A DNA stretch of 30,608 nucleotides from a virus: positions 1-30,608 of the IMG/VR virus record IMGVR_UViG_3300038701_002030; one strand, given 5' to 3'. This document shows positions 3,240 to 17,110 of this stretch, one piece after another. The notes beneath the pieces are model-generated. The model was not told the origin of the DNA, did not search any database, and was given only the letters and a program-made list of their open reading frames with translations. The position numbers and the translations under genes are program-made. Numbering within the stretch: position 1 is the stretch's first letter; the number at the start of each line of letters is the position of its first letter.

Positions 3240-3240
3240 C
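3205..3240 (-). other. G-rich tract after stop codon, possible G-quadruplex (minus strand)
   Basis: On the minus strand the TAG stop of the gene at 3240-3869 runs straight into G5-A-G4-TCA-G4, then, after 14 bases, G5. These four runs could fold as a quadruplex in DNA or in the 3' untranslated RNA. Confidence 0.42.
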
Positions 3241-3869
3241 TACCTTCTTGCAGAGGGTGCCTTTGCGCGAACGAGTGCTCTTGCGAACTGCCATTCAAAA
3301 TCTTTATAAAACTGAGACTTAGCGTACTTGTAGAATTTGAACTTGCGGTTGTACTTGACCGGTGTGTTCACAATCTGCATGTGCATCTTCAGACCCTTCT
3401 TGGTTCGCTGCCATACGCCGTATTGAGTTTTAGGATTTAAACCTTTCGGAGTTCCCACAAAATAATTATCGAACGATTTACGTTTGAGATAATTCGCTCG
3501 CATTTTTTTACTGACGTTACCGAACTTCGTTGTCCTAGAATTTTTAGTTCGTTGAATGATCCCTTTTCCACCTTTAGGTCGTCTGGTACCGCCATGAATT
3601 TGTAACGCAAGGTATTCGTTTTTCTCTCGTGTTCGAACGTAAGCGCTCAAATCTCGTTTGTGTGATTTGGTGTATTCAAAACCTTGCTTAGTCCAACGTG
3701 TTGCGCCCAAGTGAAAGTTACGATCAGCTTCCTTCGGTAATCTGTCTTTCGCAATCGTATACGCAACACGATTGATCGCTTGGCTGGCAGCGAACGGAAC
3801 TTGCTTCATGTACGTTTCGTCAAGCTCGTTAAATACTCTATCTACGTCGCTATCAATGGTTAATCTCAT
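3240..3869 (-). CDS. Basic phage protein, possible minor tail protein
   Basis: 209 aa and very rich in Lys/Arg. The N-terminal pattern FNELDETYMKQVPFAASQAI followed by NRVAYTIAK...FHLGATRWTKQGFEY resembles phage minor tail or head-tail proteins that begin with ...VPFA...AlN.tA..... and a FTLRN.WT-like motif; a later HGGTRRPKGGKG loop also fits. This is family resemblance by eye, not proof. A good AAGG Shine-Dalgarno lies 8 bases before the ATG. It stands alone: flanked by the CTGTCAT cluster upstream and a 575-bp non-coding stretch downstream, and separated from the tail operon by the whole replication region. An alternative is a nucleic-acid-binding protein, given its charge. Confidence 0.6.
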   Translation of the reverse strand: MRLTIDSDVDRVFNELDETYMKQVPFAASQAINRVAYTIAKDRLPKEADRNFHLGATRWTKQGFEYTKSHKRDLSAYVRTREKNEYLALQIHGGTRRPKGGKGIIQRTKNSRTTKFGNVSKKMRANYLKRKSFDNYFVGTPKGLNPKTQYGVWQRTKKGLKMHMQIVNTPVKYNRKFKFYKYAKSQFYKDFEWQFARALVRAKAPSARR

Positions 3870-3927
3870 AACAACCGCCTTCCCGTGATAATCACAATTG
3901 ATTTTACTCTAATCGCGTTGTTTTTCT

Positions 3928-4183
3928 AGTTCTGTCATCTGTCATGAGTTCTGTCATAGTTCTGTCATCGCTAAGTCCTTGATTCTATTACCTTTATTCT
4001 TCTTTATGACAGATGACAGAGAATATATAGTATATTGGTAACAGAATATGTAAATAAGAATGGTTATCATATATATAAATACTGGGGGAAAGTAGAAAAA
4101 GTTCTGTCATAATAAAAAAATGCCGCAAACCCACGTGGTTACTGGGCTGCGGCATGACAGAACGTTCCGGCATGTTTCTGTCA
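3928..4183. repeat. CTGTCAT repeat cluster, candidate replication origin
   Basis: Exact CTGTCAT heptamers occur at 3932, 3939, 3951, 3962 and 4104 on the plus strand and at 4006, 4013 and 4154 inverted, with a CTGTCA at 4178. Five of the longer units read GTTCTGTCAT. Between the two groups lies an AT-rich tract (about 4021-4080). Iterons beside an AT-rich unwinding tract, next to the primase-helicase gene, are the classical layout of a phage or plasmid origin. Spacing is irregular and units are short, so it is not CRISPR. An operator array is the main alternative. Confidence 0.55.
4101..4163 (-). terminator. Nested terminator after the primase-helicase gene
   Basis: On the minus strand ATGCCGCA (4155-4148) pairs perfectly with TGCGGCAT (4127-4120) and is followed by a T7 run (4120-4114); an inner CCCA/TGGG pairing extends it. 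Outside it, GTTCTGTCAT (4163-4154) can pair with ATGACAGAAC (4110-4101), itself followed by TTTTT. The two arms are members of the CTGTCAT repeat cluster. It closes the long leftward early operon 24 bases after the stop at 4187. Confidence 0.85.
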
Positions 4184-4186
4184 AAG

Positions 4187-6448
4187 TCACGTTATAGCGA
4201 ATAAATTAACCTTACTGTTCTGGTTATTGACGTAGAGGTCAGTAACTTTACTGATCGGTGAGTCATTATGTTCGCCAATTTTCACATAAAGTACAGGACG
4301 GGTATTACCATCAGTCTCTAAATTACGACTAACACGACCACTGTTGCTTTCTGTTCCTGTTAAATAGTCGTATCCCAACGACTGCATAATTGCCCGGCGC
4401 TTATTTCGTTTAACCTTTTTATCTAGCTTACGTTCAATCAGTAACCGGTCTAAGTGATATCCGCTAACGAACCCCCCTCTGAAACCATACAACCCTGCGT
4501 TAATCGCCTCTTGAATTTCCTGTTCGACTTCGCCTTGAGTATGTTCAATTGCTTCGTCTGTACTGGACGTTCTGGGGGCTTGCTGACACGACGTAGCGGG
4601 GTTGAGTTCATCGGCAATCACACAAGACGCTAAATAGTCGTGCACGATTGCATAGCCCCCCTCCTTCAGCCAAGCGTACAAGTTTTGAAAGTAGGTAGCG
4701 TTCCAACCGTCTCGCATCATGTCTTTTTTGGTTTGCTGGTTGCTGTATAAAATGGCGTAACGTCTTTGGTCCACATTGACCGGTATAGCGTCCTTATGAT
4801 TGGTCGCCATGATAATGTTCGCCCGGTTGTCACCGTTGTAAGTGTCCACACCTTTACGCTCAATCGCCAACTGTTCATTAGTAATGATCGGTTTGAGTGC
4901 TTCTAATACTTCGCCACGGTGCGACGGTATTTTAATTTCATCAATGAAGCAGAACAGTTTATTCTCAATCCAACCGTTAAACTTGCTAGCAATCTCAGTA
5001 CTGTTAGGAGTGATACAATAACGATCACCTAAACACTCTCTCATCACTCGATAGATAAGAGTCTTACCATTCCCTTCTACCCCTTGAACAACCGGTGACC
5101 ATTGGAACTTACTACCTTTATGCTGAACGCAAGCGGCCATGAACGACAACAAGATATCAGCGTCGCGCCCATGTGGAAGTAGCGTTTTTATATGGTTGAT
5201 GAATGGGCTCGGGTCACCTTTCATTCGTGGCGTATCAATCGGTACGTACGCATTAACGAAGTGATACCCCCCTTGCTTGTAAACAACCCCGCTCGGTTTC
5301 TCTGGTGCAAAACTTATCCGGTCTGCTTTTGGAAAAAACCATGCTTGGCTTTCGGTGAATACTTCAAAGGCGTTCTTACTGGTCTTGTCACCAATCGCAT
5401 CTAAAGCAAAAACATAACCGCCATAACTACTCTTAAACGCCATGGGTTTTAACATGGAACCATTCGGTGTAAGCACCGTCTGCAATTCTTTAATGTACGT
5501 GCAACCTTTAAAATAATCTTGTTGTGTTATGTGGTCCATAAATTGGTAACCGGACCGGACCGTCGCACCGTCTATGATTTCCGTAACGTCGTGCGCTTGC
5601 ACACTTTCCTTGTAGCATTTCTCAGTCATCAGCACCGCATTACTAATGGTACTTTTGCGGTACGCTTCACGCTTCACCCATTTGTCCCTGACCAAACCGG
5701 ACCGGTTAAACAATCGTTCCATTCGTACCGGGTTCTTTTGCGTCCAAAATGCAAGGTGCATGCACAGTGCTTGGTCAAGACTTGACTCATCACCGCCGTA
5801 CTGTACAACGGCTTGTTCTGTTTTATTCCACAGATCAGCTACGGTACATTTCCCAGTAAACGCATTAGCTACTCCGGTTGTACCCAACATCTTGGCAATC
5901 AGTGCATCATCATCGGGTATAGCCCCCAGTGGTTCATCCACCCATGGCACCGAACCGCTACCTACTACACCAACAGGGAAATACTTATCAGCAATAGTGG
6001 TGAGGTCGATTACTGTATCTTCATTACCACCGGCACCCACATTTCCTGTCCACGCTATAAAACGTTCAGTCGTGTAGAGTTCAATATGCAACTTAGTGTT
6101 TTTACACATTCTATCTTCAGGCACCGGACCAGTACCCCAAATGTGCAACCCCTTACCGGAACGCGACACCTCTACCAAACAACCAGCTGTAGCATTAACC
6201 AACTCCATAGCTAATGGGCTCCATGTACCGTCAGGCTGTAGAGCACCATCAATATCTAAGCACCAATACGGATTATCATCGGTAAGCACGAAACCAAGCT
6301 CGCAACCTATTAGTTGGGCTTGTATTTGAGCGGTTTTATGGTCGGTGTGAATAGATTGGTCGTGAGGGTCGTGAGGAGTTAAAAAAGCCGGATTAACCGG
6401 CACTTTGTTCTTATGTAAAATCCAATTATTGTACGCGGTTAATGGCAT
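4187..6448 (-). CDS. Primase-polymerase / SF3 helicase fusion
   Basis: 753 aa. The N-terminal third looks like an archaeo-eukaryotic primase (PrimPol) domain: motif I WCLDIDGA (D65, D67), motif II SRSGKGLHIWG (H102), motif III HIELYTTERFIAWTG (E123). The C-terminal half is an SF3/D5-like helicase: Walker A GVEGNGKT (about residue 452), Walker B LFCFIDEI (about 500), then IIMATNHKDAIPVNVDQRRY (sensor/arginine region). This is the layout of NrS-1-type and similar phage primase-helicases: the AEP half makes primers (or DNA) and the hexameric ring unwinds the fork. It is the last gene of the long leftward operon, overlapping the HTH gene by 23 bp, and abuts the candidate origin repeats it may recognise. 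Confidence 0.9.
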   Translation of the reverse strand: MPLTAYNNWILHKNKVPVNPAFLTPHDPHDQSIHTDHKTAQIQAQLIGCELGFVLTDDNPYWCLDIDGALQPDGTWSPLAMELVNATAGCLVEVSRSGKGLHIWGTGPVPEDRMCKNTKLHIELYTTERFIAWTGNVGAGGNEDTVIDLTTIADKYFPVGVVGSGSVPWVDEPLGAIPDDDALIAKMLGTTGVANAFTGKCTVADLWNKTEQAVVQYGGDESSLDQALCMHLAFWTQKNPVRMERLFNRSGLVRDKWVKREAYRKSTISNAVLMTEKCYKESVQAHDVTEIIDGATVRSGYQFMDHITQQDYFKGCTYIKELQTVLTPNGSMLKPMAFKSSYGGYVFALDAIGDKTSKNAFEVFTESQAWFFPKADRISFAPEKPSGVVYKQGGYHFVNAYVPIDTPRMKGDPSPFINHIKTLLPHGRDADILLSFMAACVQHKGSKFQWSPVVQGVEGNGKTLIYRVMRECLGDRYCITPNSTEIASKFNGWIENKLFCFIDEIKIPSHRGEVLEALKPIITNEQLAIERKGVDTYNGDNRANIIMATNHKDAIPVNVDQRRYAILYSNQQTKKDMMRDGWNATYFQNLYAWLKEGGYAIVHDYLASCVIADELNPATSCQQAPRTSSTDEAIEHTQGEVEQEIQEAINAGLYGFRGGFVSGYHLDRLLIERKLDKKVKRNKRRAIMQSLGYDYLTGTESNSGRVSRNLETDGNTRPVLYVKIGEHNDSPISKVTDLYVNNQNSKVNLFAIT

Positions 6449-6722
6449 GTGTAAGGGCTCGCTCTTTCAAGTCACGATCAATTTTACGGGTTACAACGTG
6501 GTTTGCTATCAAACCTTGAGCAATAACCGCAAGGTCTTCTTTCTCAACTGCAAAGCGTAACAGATCACGACGTAACTTATCCATATTTGTAAAATGGACC
6601 ACAATTGTACCGTTCACAACTTCGGCAGCTTCCGCAATTTCAGGCATCTTAATTTTGTCAAAGCCTTTCTTGCGAGCAAGCTTTAGGGCCTGTTTTAAAA
6701 TATTTGATTTAGTATAGTGCAT
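6426..6722 (-). CDS. Mini TetR-like helix-turn-helix protein, 98 aa
   Basis: Residues 5-55 look like a TetR N-terminal domain: a helix (ILKQALKLARKKGF), then MPEIAEAAEVVNGTIVVHFTN as the helix-turn-helix with the typical ...V..HF.N...L exit (canonical: ..tiY.hF.sKe.L). At 98 aa it lacks the roughly 130-residue ligand/dimerisation domain of ordinary TetR proteins. A frame opens at a TTG at 6737, but the GAAGG Shine-Dalgarno lies after it, so the ATG at 6722 is chosen. It begins 1 base after the upstream stop and overlaps the primase-helicase gene by 23 bp. A DNA-binding role (repressor or origin accessory factor) is inferred. Confidence 0.75.
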   Translation of the reverse strand: MHYTKSNILKQALKLARKKGFDKIKMPEIAEAAEVVNGTIVVHFTNMDKLRRDLLRFAVEKEDLAVIAQGLIANHVVTRKIDRDLKERALTHAINRVQ

Positions 6723-6723
6723 T

Positions 6724-6924
6724 TCATTTACCTTCAAGTTCGGCGGTCAATTTATCAAGTTGGTCGGACATTTCGTTAAACGTCTTGGTCGTGGCTTCCA
6801 TGCCATGTTCCGGTGAAATAACCGTATTCACATTTTCGAATTTCTTAATGGTGGTAACGTATCTTTGCATAGCACGATTGAAACGTATCTCTAACACTTC
6901 AAGTTCGGTTGGTTCATTAGGCAT
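6724..6924 (-). CDS. Small helical protein, 66 aa
   Basis: Not recognised. Nearly all predicted helix with heptad-like spacing (LEVLEIRFNRAMQRY, then FNEMSDQLDKLTAELEGK), suggesting a short coiled coil. AAGGA lies 9 bases before the ATG. It is followed 1 base later by the mini HTH gene, so the two are likely translated together and might interact. Confidence 0.68.
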   Translation of the reverse strand: MPNEPTELEVLEIRFNRAMQRYVTTIKKFENVNTVISPEHGMEATTKTFNEMSDQLDKLTAELEGK

Positions 6925-13141: not shown

Positions 13142-14264
13142 TCACTTTCACATTAGTCCGTCAATGCTCGGTACTATGGTGAAGTGTCACGGTTCTTATC
13201 AGGCTAGGCAGAAGTGGCCTGATATTGACCTAGAAAATGACGCGGCGGAGTATGGGACCGCCGCTCATTGGTATGCTGAACAATTGGGCAAAGTTGAAAT
13301 AGGTGATAAGGCACCTAACGGCGTACTCATTGATCAGGATATTGCGCTTTATACCAAACCGTACATTGAACGCATAAAACAACTAACCAGCATTAGCGAA
13401 TACTGTGGAGTTGAGACGAAAGTAAACCTTCCAATGTTGTTAGAAGGAATGTTTGGTACCGTCGACCTGTGGGCTTATGACATAGGTACGAAAACACTAC
13501 ACGTAGAAGATTTAAAGTTTGGTTTCAATGTTGTTGAAGCCGATGATAATTTTCAATTAGCAGCTTATGCAATTGGTTTGTTAGAGGCGTTAGGTTTCAA
13601 CGGGCACACCGAACAGGACGTAACTGTTGAAATGACAATCCACCAACCAAGGGCTTGGCACCCAATGGGTACAGTAAGAACGTGGCGTGTTAAAGCTACT
13701 GACTTACGGGCAACACGGAACATTATCATCAATACCATTAACGCAGTTCTTAGTGGTAGACCGTTAATGTTCAAGTCGGGTAATCATTGTAAGTATTGCA
13801 ATGGTAAGCTTTATTGCCCTGCTGCAATATCGGCTGGATACAATGCGGTCGATGTAATAACCACAGGTTCGTTACTTGACGACCAACCAATTGAAACTTT
13901 GGAAAGCATGTTCGTCACTTTAACTAATGCTAGACGAGCTTTAGAAAACTTATATAGCGCTGTTGAACTGACGTTACAGTCTGAAGTTGAAAAAGGTGCC
14001 TATGTTAACCGCGTAGGAATTGTAAAAGGTCAGTCACGCCGTAAGTGGTCCCGTGATGACAAAGAAATAATAACTCTGGGTAAATTGTTCGGCTTTGAAC
14101 TAACAGAAGAAAAAGTTTTAAGTCCTGCTAAAGCTGAACAATTAGGTATTGACCCCGAAGTCATTAAACCATATATTACCAAGACTCGCACAGCACCTAA
14201 GCTGAAAGTGACTAACGGTAAAACACTAACTGAGAAGGTTTTTCAAAATGCCAAAACTAAATGA
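13134..14264 (+). CDS. DUF2800 RecB/Cas4-like nuclease with probable Fe-S cluster
   Basis: 376 aa. PD-(D/E)XK core: LEGMFGTVD with D111, HVEDLKFG with E125 and K128, then DNFQLAAYA with Q141 and Y145. One N-terminal cysteine (C18, in SMLGTMVKCHGSY) and three C-terminal ones (C219, C222, C228 in HCKYCNGKLYC) match the 1+3 layout that holds a 4Fe-4S cluster in Cas4, AddB and AdnB nucleases. A likely single-strand-generating exonuclease for recombination-dependent replication. It overlaps both neighbours (8 and 17 bp); DUF2800 followed by a DUF2815 ssDNA-binding protein is a recurring phage pair. Catalysis and cluster are inferred from residues. Confidence 0.87.
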   Translation: MADHFHISPSMLGTMVKCHGSYQARQKWPDIDLENDAAEYGTAAHWYAEQLGKVEIGDKAPNGVLIDQDIALYTKPYIERIKQLTSISEYCGVETKVNLPMLLEGMFGTVDLWAYDIGTKTLHVEDLKFGFNVVEADDNFQLAAYAIGLLEALGFNGHTEQDVTVEMTIHQPRAWHPMGTVRTWRVKATDLRATRNIIINTINAVLSGRPLMFKSGNHCKYCNGKLYCPAAISAGYNAVDVITTGSLLDDQPIETLESMFVTLTNARRALENLYSAVELTLQSEVEKGAYVNRVGIVKGQSRRKWSRDDKEIITLGKLFGFELTEEKVLSPAKAEQLGIDPEVIKPYITKTRTAPKLKVTNGKTLTEKVFQNAKTK

Positions 14265-15048
14265 TTTACAAGTAGTAACAGACGACGTAATTGTAATTTG
14301 GGATGGTTTAACAAATCCTGAAACAAACCAGCAAGGTAAAGTCCAACATCATTTGTCTGTAGCTTTCCAAGCAAATTCACCTGTTCACGCAGAGCTAGAA
14401 CAACTTTTGCAATCCGAACTATTAACCGGTGATTTTAAAGGTAATTTACCGGCTGGTGCAAAATGGGGAATTGCCGATGTTGACACATCCAAAATTCCTG
14501 AATTAGCCGGTTGGAAAAAAGCCAACATCGGTACGTACACCGGGCAACCGACTTGTGTAGATGAAAACGGTCAGAAGATCAACCCTACAATGCTGGCAGG
14601 GCTATTACGTGCCGGTTCACGGGTCAAACTCATCGCACACGCCTATACGTACAACGCAATGGGTAATCAGGGCGTTAAGCTCGGTTTGGACGGCGTACAG
14701 TGTCTTGGTGCTGGTATGGAGCTGTCTGTCAGTGCCGGTATGTCAGCGGATCAAGTCGGTGCGGCATTCGGTGGACAACCAATGGGTACCGTAGCAGGTG
14801 TACAACCAATGCCTCAAGGTGTAGTTCAACAAGGCGCTGCACCAACACCAGCTGCACCAACACCAGCTGCACCAACACCAGCTGCACCAACACCGGTACA
14901 AGGTTTTGCTCAAGGTGCACCAGCTGTGCCAGCACCAACACCAGTTGAAAAATCTTACAATGTGAATGGTCAGGTATACACTGAATCAGCATTGCGTACC
15001 GGCGGTTATACCGACGCTCACTTTGCACAAATGACACCTGTTGCTTAG
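14248..15048 (+). CDS. DUF2815-type ssDNA-binding protein
   Basis: 266 aa. Residues 1-165 look like an OB-fold ssDNA-binding protein of the DUF2815 type ([20 protein letters not shown] at the start, [20 protein letters not shown] in the core, [12 protein letters not shown] at the end), the usual partner of DUF2800 nucleases. A linker rich in Gly, Gln, Pro and Ala follows, including four AAPTP units coded by a 15-bp tandem repeat, then a conserved-looking C-terminal tip ([20 protein letters not shown]) that may contact other replication proteins. It would coat single-stranded DNA at the fork. A terminator-like hairpin follows the stop. Confidence 0.85.
14836..14895 (+). repeat. Four tandem 15-bp repeats in the SSB linker
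   Basis: Unit GCTGCACCAACACCA, four copies in register with the last base changed in copy four, coding (Ala-Ala-Pro-Thr-Pro)4. The multiple-of-three length keeps frame if copy number changes by slippage. It encodes the flexible linker between the OB-fold core and the C-terminal tip. Confidence 0.93.
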
Positions 15049-15140: not shown

Positions 15141-15317
15141 ATGCAAAATTTACCGTATGAGAATCAAGTTGTTATGTGCAGGGAGAAAAACAAAAAGACT
15201 TATCATCGTGCTGTTTATAAAAACGGTGTGTTCATTGCCGGTGGTGATTACCCAATTAAGGTATATGAAATCAAGCCTGTGGAATGGTTTGATTTTGATG
15301 AATTTCACAAGGAGTAG
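15141..15317 (+). CDS. Small hypothetical protein, 58 aa
   Basis: Begins MQNLPYENQVVMCREKNKKT and ends EWFDFDEFHKE. AGGA lies 6 bases before the ATG, and the stop is 2 bases before the polymerase ATG, whose own Shine-Dalgarno AAGGAG is in its last codons, so the two genes are tightly linked. Predicted beta-rich (YHRAVYKNGVFIAGGDYPIK) with an acidic, aromatic C-terminus. Not recognised; position suggests a polymerase-associated or regulatory small protein. Confidence 0.72.
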   Translation: MQNLPYENQVVMCREKNKKTYHRAVYKNGVFIAGGDYPIKVYEIKPVEWFDFDEFHKE

Positions 15318-15319
15318 CT

Positions 15320-17110
15320 ATGCAAACTTACGATATAGAAACTTACCCTAACGCCTTTACTTGTTGGTTCTATGACAGTGAGAATTGGTACTACTACGAA
15401 ATTTCTCAGTACCGGAACGATTTAGAGGCGTTCCGAAACCATTGCATGTGGTTAGCGTCCCATCAGATACCTATGGTTGGTTTCAACAATTTAGGATTTG
15501 ACTACCCTGTAGTTCATCATATTTTGACGACGCATCATTGTAACTACGCAACCATTTATGCAAAAGCTCAAGAAATCATAGATACACCATGGGATGATCG
15601 GTTTAGAAATATGATCCGTGATCCTCTGGTGCCTCAAATCGATCTGTACAAAATCAAGCACTACGATAACTTTTCTAAATCAACGCGGTTAAAATATTTA
15701 GAATTTGTAATGCGAATGCAAACCATACAAGACTTACCGATTGAAGTTGGTACATGGTTAACACAATCACAGATTCACGATCTCGCCGTGTACAATAAAC
15801 ACGACGTGCAGGCCACTCATGATTTCCTTGTTGATTACTGTTTACCGGACATAGAGTTACGAAAAGCTTTATCGGACGAGTACGGTATTAACATGATCAA
15901 CTTCAACGATTCTAAAATGGGTAGCGTTGTACTAGAACACGAACTGCAGAAAGCAGGTGTAAGTACCGGCGGTAAAACGTTCCGTGATCAGATTGAGCTA
16001 AAAGAAATCATACTACCTTATATTTCTTTTGCTCATCCTGAATTTATTAGGGTTCTAGATTATTTAAAAGGACAAACGTTGAAAGAAACCAAAGGTGCTT
16101 TTGATGATTTGTCAGCGCATTGTTTTGGTATTGAATTTATTTTTGGAACCGGTGGTATTCACGCTAGTATTGAATCAGGTCATGTCCATGCTGAAGAAGG
16201 TTATCAGATTGTTGATGTTGACGTAGCCAGTTATTACCCAAACTTAGCAATCAGTAACCGTTGGTACCCTGAACACCTTAGCGAAATTTTCTGTGACGTT
16301 TATCAAGCGCTCTACGAAAAACGTAAAACCTTCCCAAAAGGTAGCCCACAAAACGCAGCGTTAAAATTAGCATTGAACGGTACTTACGGTAATAGTAATA
16401 GTAAATACAGTACGTTCTATGACCCTAAGTTCACAATATCTATCACGGTGAATGGTCAGTTGTTATTGTGCATGTTGGCTGAACACCTTGCCGTTATACC
16501 GACGTGTAAGCTGATACAGGCTAACACTGACGGCGTGACCGTCTCCATACGTGACGATTACCGGCCTTACCTTGACGAAGTATGTCGATGGTGGGAAAAC
16601 CTCACAGGGTTGATCTTGGAGGCTGCAGAATACTCGGACATGTGGATACGTGACGTAAACAATTACATTGCCCGTTATACAAACGGTAAATTTAAGCGCA
16701 AAGGTGCTTATGAGTTCGACCGCCAACCTCACCAGAACCACAGTGGTCTAATTGTTCCTAAAATGGCTTTTGATCGTATCACCGGTTCTGTTACACCAGC
16801 TGATGAATTAGACTTTTTAATGTGCGCTAAGGTGCCTCGTAATTCTCGGTTGGAGCATGGTGAAACGGTGATACAACCGATCAGTCGTTACGCCGTTACG
16901 AAAACTGGTGAACCTTTAACGAAAGTCATGCCACCGATCAAAGGTAAGGGTACGACTGAACGACGTATCGGTATTGATAAAACATGGTTAACCACAGTAG
17001 TTAACGACTTGTCTGACGATAGTTGGATAGCTAATATTGACCAAGAATATTACGAACAATCAATTCAAAAATTGGTAGGTCCAGTATGTCGGCATGTACC
17101 CGTAAAATAA
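15320..17110 (+). CDS. Family B DNA polymerase with 3'-5' exonuclease
   Basis: 596 aa. Exonuclease: Exo I YDIETYP (D5, E7), Exo II GFNNLGFDYP (N56, D61), Exo III YNKHDVQATHDF (Y158, D162). Polymerase: motif A VDVASYYPNLA (D301), motif B KLALNGTYGN (K349, N353, Y356, G357), motif C QANTDGVTV (D404). Motif C reads NTDG instead of the usual DTDS; the second, metal-binding aspartate is kept. It is short for family B (often 750-900 aa) and has no evident TPR1/TPR2-like insertions. AAGGAG sits 5 bases before the ATG. It is the replicative polymerase of this phage, and its 3' end overlaps the zinc-ribbon gene by 25 bp. Confidence 0.92.
   Translation: MQTYDIETYPNAFTCWFYDSENWYYYEISQYRNDLEAFRNHCMWLASHQIPMVGFNNLGFDYPVVHHILTTHHCNYATIYAKAQEIIDTPWDDRFRNMIRDPLVPQIDLYKIKHYDNFSKSTRLKYLEFVMRMQTIQDLPIEVGTWLTQSQIHDLAVYNKHDVQATHDFLVDYCLPDIELRKALSDEYGINMINFNDSKMGSVVLEHELQKAGVSTGGKTFRDQIELKEIILPYISFAHPEFIRVLDYLKGQTLKETKGAFDDLSAHCFGIEFIFGTGGIHASIESGHVHAEEGYQIVDVDVASYYPNLAISNRWYPEHLSEIFCDVYQALYEKRKTFPKGSPQNAALKLALNGTYGNSNSKYSTFYDPKFTISITVNGQLLLCMLAEHLAVIPTCKLIQANTDGVTVSIRDDYRPYLDEVCRWWENLTGLILEAAEYSDMWIRDVNNYIARYTNGKFKRKGAYEFDRQPHQNHSGLIVPKMAFDRITGSVTPADELDFLMCAKVPRNSRLEHGETVIQPISRYAVTKTGEPLTKVMPPIKGKGTTERRIGIDKTWLTTVVNDLSDDSWIANIDQEYYEQSIQKLVGPVCRHVPVK

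Follow-up and report, generated by a model that had tools for sequence, protein, structure and literature searches.

A cluster of short repeats at positions 3928-4183 of a 30,608-bp stretch of viral DNA (the window, meaning the whole stretch that was analysed) is best explained as an origin of replication that would be bound and opened by the product of the adjacent gene, a primase-polymerase with an SF3 helicase domain (PrimPol). Judging from sequence and its comparison across relatives, we put the probability of this reading at roughly three in four. Taken separately, the proposition that the cluster is an origin is highly probable, and the proposition that PrimPol is the protein that reads its repeats is likely. 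The initial annotation had already pointed to a candidate origin with the primase-helicase as its reader, and that is the reading that now appears best supported, with family-wide comparative backing.

The CTGTCAT cluster

Eight exact copies of the heptamer CTGTCAT, in both orientations, lie within 229 bp (3932-4160): on the plus strand at 3932, 3939, 3951, 3962 and 4104, and on the minus strand at 4006, 4013 and 4154. The same count finds only two copies in the rest of the 30,608 bp, at 15372 (minus strand) and 26059 (plus strand); it covers a 30.6-kb linear viral fragment rather than an entire genome. The recount agrees with the number and orientations first reported, and so does the chance expectation then given as about 0.03 copies in a segment of this size: shuffled sequence yields 3.95 copies per whole window and ~0.03 per 256 bp. 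In Markov replicates of the same composition (n=20) the densest cluster of any heptamer has only 3 or 4 copies. Taking TCTGTCA as the unit gives nine non-overlapping copies between 3931 and 4183 (253 bp), and the longer core seen most often among the copies is GTTCTGTCAT.

The left iteron array (3928-3968, plus strand) holds the copies at 3932, 3939, 3951 and 3962, three of them within AGTTCTGTCAT, in the order AGTTCTGTCAT-CTGTCAT-GAGTTCTGTCAT-AGTTCTGTCAT. It is opposed by an inverted iteron pair (4006-4012 and 4013-4019, minus strand), of which the segment 4006-4020 forms a perfect 15-bp inverted repeat with 3931-3945 (TCTGTCATCTGTCAT / ATGACAGATGACAGA), so placed that four CTGTCAT copies are contained in it. 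Farther right are an iteron with the sequence AGTTCTGTCAT (4100-4110, plus strand), which includes a CTGTCAT copy, an inverted GTTCTGTCAT iteron (4154-4163, minus strand), and a ninth, imperfect iteron, TTCTGTCA, which lacks the final T and counts as a TCTGTCA copy (4176-4183, plus strand).

The AT-rich tract that the initial annotation had placed among the repeats can be located more sharply: of all 80-bp duplexes in the 30.6-kb window, 4001-4080 has the lowest stability by nearest-neighbour energy, and the opposing arrays adjoin this candidate unwinding tract. Between the arrays, 3 bp after the last left iteron, is a predicted IHF-consensus site (3972-3984, minus strand; TAAGTCCTTGATT as read on the plus strand), a perfect match to WATCAANNNNTTR. 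The free positions of this site are GTC in many relatives, and a protein other than IHF may therefore act there. A terminator-like hairpin with a U-run (~4112-4155, minus strand; z -4.8) stands behind the PrimPol gene and inside the cluster, framed by a pair of inverted iterons, with the iteron at 4154-4163 overlapping its stem. Neither the hairpin nor the IHF-consensus site figured in the initial annotation.

Genes around the cluster

The cluster is directly 3' of the PrimPol gene (4187-6448, minus strand, with the gene end at 4187). Its 753-aa product (PF22763, E 4e-19; PF19263, E 2.5e-21; phrog_1829, E 2e-115) joins an NrS-1-type helix bundle domain (HBD) to a DUF5906/VapE-type SF3 helicase, which refines its original assignment as a primase-polymerase/SF3 helicase; solved structures exist for relatives, namely the NrS-1 polymerase and a DNA primase (PDB entry 7ola). 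Overlapping the PrimPol start is the gene of a mini TetR-type DNA-binding protein of 103 aa (6426-6737, minus strand; PF00440, E 2e-10), probably a regulator. On the other side, the first late gene past the cluster is a minor tail/neck gene (3240-3869, minus strand; phrog_1924, E 1e-29). The window also encodes a DNA polymerase (15320-17110), a DEAD-type helicase, an exonuclease and a Gp2.5-like protein; integrase and terminase, including the small subunit TerS, have no match among the window proteins scanned. A separate repeat, of the GCACCAAC type at 14700-14950, encodes the Pro-Thr-Ala-rich tail of the Gp2.5-like single-strand DNA-binding protein.

In almost all relatives (L132-L211) PrimPol has a mini-TetR gene linked to it. 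The homologues are ~100 aa long and have a TetR DNA-binding domain without the usual ligand domain; they share a conserved tail, IIAQGL...A..KA...LK..AL, and some have two HTH copies.

The same layout beside other PrimPol and SF3 genes

A profile built from six PrimPols matched about 300 PrimPol contigs, of which 80 viral contigs were retrieved. In many of these relatives a short word is repeated 4-11 times, for the most part in both orientations, within a single long intergenic region that lies 0-6 kb downstream of PrimPol. In ~25 relatives the layout is alike and CTGTCAT is replaced by an own 6-8mer: GGGGTA/CGGGGTA in L199, L144, L185, L183, L139, L163 and phages MEW1, PEAT2, AAM22 and Scuro; GAGGTA in L190; GGGTA in L207, L169 and L175; GCCGGTA in L189; GTGGTA in L162; CGGTCAT in L166 and L170; and CTTAACA in L149. 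The cluster comes immediately after the PrimPol gene in L207 and ~0.6 kb behind it in L189. The weakest duplex of the locus falls inside the cluster in 18 of 27 clusters of relatives, and an exact IHF consensus is found in 11 of the 27 (0.7 expected in random segments, 3.4 in GC-matched ones). With at most one mismatch allowed, the longer sequence TAAGTCNTTGATT has 39 copies in 1.77 Mb of these phages versus 6 for the reversed control, and many of its copies come a short distance after an iteron. The clusters regularly precede late genes (TerS or neck).

These cluster calls are heuristic and limited to intergenic regions with both orientations. Unrestricted k-mer clusters (AGCAGC, CACCAG) turned up in many loci and are probably coding repeats, and four intergenic candidates that are AT-rich or one-sided (AACTAA in L135, AAATCA in L171, AGAGAT in L208, GCTGAC in L165) were set aside. 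Many relatives gave no clear cluster call, some of those contigs being incomplete. The window itself has no close DNA relative among phage records, and single-protein scans of viral contigs with its tail protein and DNA polymerase gave no match; a stricter DNA pattern of its own array matched no other contig, so that CTGTCAT is not traceable in near kin.

Two phages have GGGGTA in a pair of widely separated clusters, of which one precedes the terminase operon and the other the neck operon: Klebsiella phage MEW1 (L130) has GGGGTA clusters at ~3630-3930 and 38060-38360, which have a long, nearly identical core in common, and Pantoea phage AAM22 (L129) has them at 15220-15413 and 49478-49744. Such pairs may be two origins, or an origin and a second cis site as in P4, which requires a separate crr region. 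Another longer common element, TAAGTCATTGATTTTAAAAAGGTAC, is found away from the iterons (L124, 40638; L126, 44356; L162, 9973), close to the terminase genes in the two cases that are annotated or aligned, and is perhaps a cos site with IHF.

The association can also be approached from the motif. Among 119 contigs chosen only by having three CTGTCAT close together, an SF3/DUF5906 helicase gene was found in five, a number that may miss other SF3 genes since the SF3 profile was trained partly on these five loci; the Pfam matches at the SF3 genes are independent of that profile. Each of the five genes has the CTGTCAT cluster no more than 1.2 kb away, and for four of them the distance is within 150 bp (clusters at L014 140-295, L048 6218-6475, L053 6712-6736, L104 5534-5778 and L111 6221-6491); for bidirectional clusters compared with the rest, Fisher p is 0.0008. 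One of the five initiators has a RepB primase domain, which makes this an association with SF3 initiators and not with one lineage. A further contig, L009, has an AT-rich tract between opposing arrays (13309-13518) and no SF3 gene in the part examined. These six viral contigs are otherwise different from one another.

Which protein reads the iterons

The case for PrimPol comes in part from a natural switch. The Vibrio phages 367.14 and 97.13 have an almost identical core in which all eight iterons are changed at one base (TGTTGT versus TGTAGT). Their PrimPols are 96% identical, and 11 of the ~31 differences fall in the last ~100 residues, a stretch with which a weak Pfam match to Pox_D5 overlaps. 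In the AlphaFold2 model (mean pLDDT 85.6) residues 605-753 of the window's PrimPol form a winged helix, with the domain proper at ~residues 640-725 (4274-4531, minus strand) and residues 707-708 (4325-4330, minus strand) in the wing. Structural matches of the C-terminal model are weak (VIA-align Z <5, with mostly winged helices as neighbours; Foldseek without a significant match, best E 0.57), so that the call is based mainly on the topology of the model itself.

Iteron type and wing residue appear to vary together. Among dereplicated phages, PrimPol column 708 ranks first and column 707 fifth of 737 for association with iteron class (Fisher p ~5e-5 for 708, uncorrected, and with phylogenetic dependence only partly handled); in a stricter phage set column 708 is tied first with others. 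Phages with GGGGTA-like iterons have GRVNN, and those with CTGTCAT, CGGTCAT or CATGTCA have GR[VT][ST]R. L189 (GCCGGTA, GRMTR) and L149 (CTTAACA, RMNT) are outside this two-class rule, and L155, L138 and L168 count as weaker evidence because their motif class was read once the protein residue was known. Columns 541 and 542 follow iteron class almost as well as 708; residues 539-542 (4823-4834, minus strand) come just before the SF3 ATNHKD motif and are possibly part of a DNA-contacting hairpin. A more tentative proposition, to which we would give somewhat less than even odds, is that a large phage group has a single initiator architecture whose recognition code switches rapidly: the wing (707-708) would set the 6-8mer that is read, with all iterons of an origin swapped together when the code changes. 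If that is true, code switches create new replication specificities between close relatives.

Other functions for the cluster

Might the cluster instead be an operator, at which the mini-TetR protein binds CTGTCAT and controls the neck/tail operon promoter, and perhaps further promoters, with replication starting elsewhere? The near-constant linkage of the TetR gene to PrimPol speaks for it, as does the location of the cluster just upstream of a late gene here, in the Vibrio phages, in MEW1 and in AAM22. A cognate TetR should then accompany the sites wherever they occur, yet L166 and L170, with seven CGGTCAT-type iterons each, have no TetR_N match in their (incomplete) records. In the Vibrio pair the recognition helix of mini-TetR is identical although every iteron has changed, the best TetR column has p ~0.013 for association with iteron class, short of the 0.01 level and against 5e-5 for PrimPol 708, and the weakest duplex is inside the cluster. 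Mini-TetR is thus disfavoured as the iteron binder and an operator is unlikely. Somewhat different is the proposal that the cluster doubles as origin and late-gene switch, binding of PrimPol or mini-TetR also regulating late transcription. This fits the location of the cluster, which both here and in relatives marks the boundary between replication and late genes, and it also fits MEW1 and AAM22, where each of two late operons has a copy upstream; the regular placement of clusters just before late genes is the reason for keeping a late-promoter or dual role under consideration. The anatomy is nevertheless explained by an origin alone, and the dual element is to be regarded as improbable.

A packaging site, with cosB-like repeats read by the small terminase and IHF helping, would have a precedent in phage lambda, whose cosB consists of repeats plus IHF; some relatives' clusters are immediately before TerS and, in the Vibrio pair, the TerS N-termini also differ, so that from this pair alone TerS could be the reader. 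That role is made unlikely by the co-occurrence of GGGGTA iterons with packaging genes of different terminase families (phrog_38/51 in MEW1, phrog_2/51 in AAM22, phrog_15/13700 in Scuro). MEW1 and AAM22 moreover have two clusters each, the window proteins scanned include no TerS match, and L124 and L126 have TAAGTCATTGATTTTAAAAAGGTAC as a separate element immediately before the TerS gene (annotated or aligned cases). A packaging function must be considered very improbable. An attP site came into consideration because its arm sites and IHF look similar; the proteins scanned include no integrase match.

Proposed initiation at the cluster

For an origin opened by PrimPol, the following course of events can be envisaged. 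The C-terminal winged helix of PrimPol would bind the CTGTCAT iterons, and the opposing arrays would place two helicase rings over the weak tract, while an IHF-like protein might bend the DNA between the left array and that tract. The segment 4001-4080 would then melt and the primase part of PrimPol would start DNA there, to be extended by the phage DNA polymerase (15320-17110) and other fork proteins. What the analysis shows directly is the anatomy (opposing iterons, weakest duplex, IHF-consensus site), its recurrence next to PrimPol/SF3 genes and the association of iteron type with a wing residue; that the protein binds, loads rings, melts the tract and initiates is our inference. The iteron sequence, the proposed reading domain and the natural switches make the scheme amenable to gel-shift analysis, and initiator/origin pairs of different specificity are on offer. 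A route to phage origins also suggests itself: the neighbourhood of PrimPol genes can be searched for short repeats that oppose each other where the duplex is weakest.

Comparison with known origins

We know the CTGTCAT unit from no named repeat family, as the initial annotation had said; its kind, on the other hand, is familiar from the iteron origins of SaPI/PICI pri-rep and P4 alpha. In PICI origins two iteron sets flank an AT-rich region 3' of pri-rep (PMC6092414), and the SaPI Rep C-terminal domain recognises iterons immediately downstream of its own gene (PMC7581432, citing Ubeda et al. 2007). Here, too, an AT-rich tract lies between two sets of short iterons and the whole is directly 3' of a primase-helicase gene, the iteron type varies between elements, and the C-terminal domain of the initiator, as modelled, is the proposed reader. 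The PICI are satellites, whereas the layout discussed here occurs in genomes of tailed phages, which encode a DNA polymerase themselves; the NrS-1-type PrimPol/HBD, the IHF-consensus element and the linked mini-TetR are further differences. The window itself is not classed as a PICI because the satellite gene set, with integrase and Rpr/AlpA-type control, is absent (no integrase match in the proteins scanned; tail and DNA polymerase genes present).

In P4, as PMC4234260 describes it, alpha protein uses a winged helix to bind the repeats of the origin, and it also primes and, as an SF3 helicase, unwinds. PrimPol is proposed to be a single binder-helicase-primase of the same sort, but the primase of P4 belongs to the bacterial Toprim type; the PrimPol has an NrS-1-type HBD and AEP-type relatives in the PDB, and is not classed as P4-type because its primase is not Toprim. 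The orf56/orf904 pair of pRN1 provides a likeness in gene content, a small DNA-binding regulator with a PrimPol-helical domain-SF3-winged helix protein, and pRN1 needs a region 3' of its PrimPol gene, where a terminator also lies; it differs in having a long stem-loop without iterons, and specific binding was not found (PMC4234260). The NrS-1 polymerase shares family and PrimPol-HBD-helicase architecture and initiates sequence-specifically, but at a site, TTTGGTTA, that occurs only twice in the NrS-1 genome, on a single-stranded template and with no iteron array (PMC8718748, PMC7102993). TTTGGTTA and TTCTGTCA are alike at 5 of 8 positions, which is not significant. At ~800-920 in Bordetella phage BPP-1 (L212), ~0.5 kb behind the primase gene, an AT-rich stretch is bordered by four TTGCCTCGTTT-like words, two of them direct and two inverted; for BIP-1, the published iteron search proposed a stem-loop instead (PMC4234260). 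What is new relative to these systems is a PICI-like layout in tailed phages with NrS-1-type PrimPols, its iteron word turning over across the group; the PICI-like layout is in this way extended to a broad group of tailed phages that have polymerases of their own.
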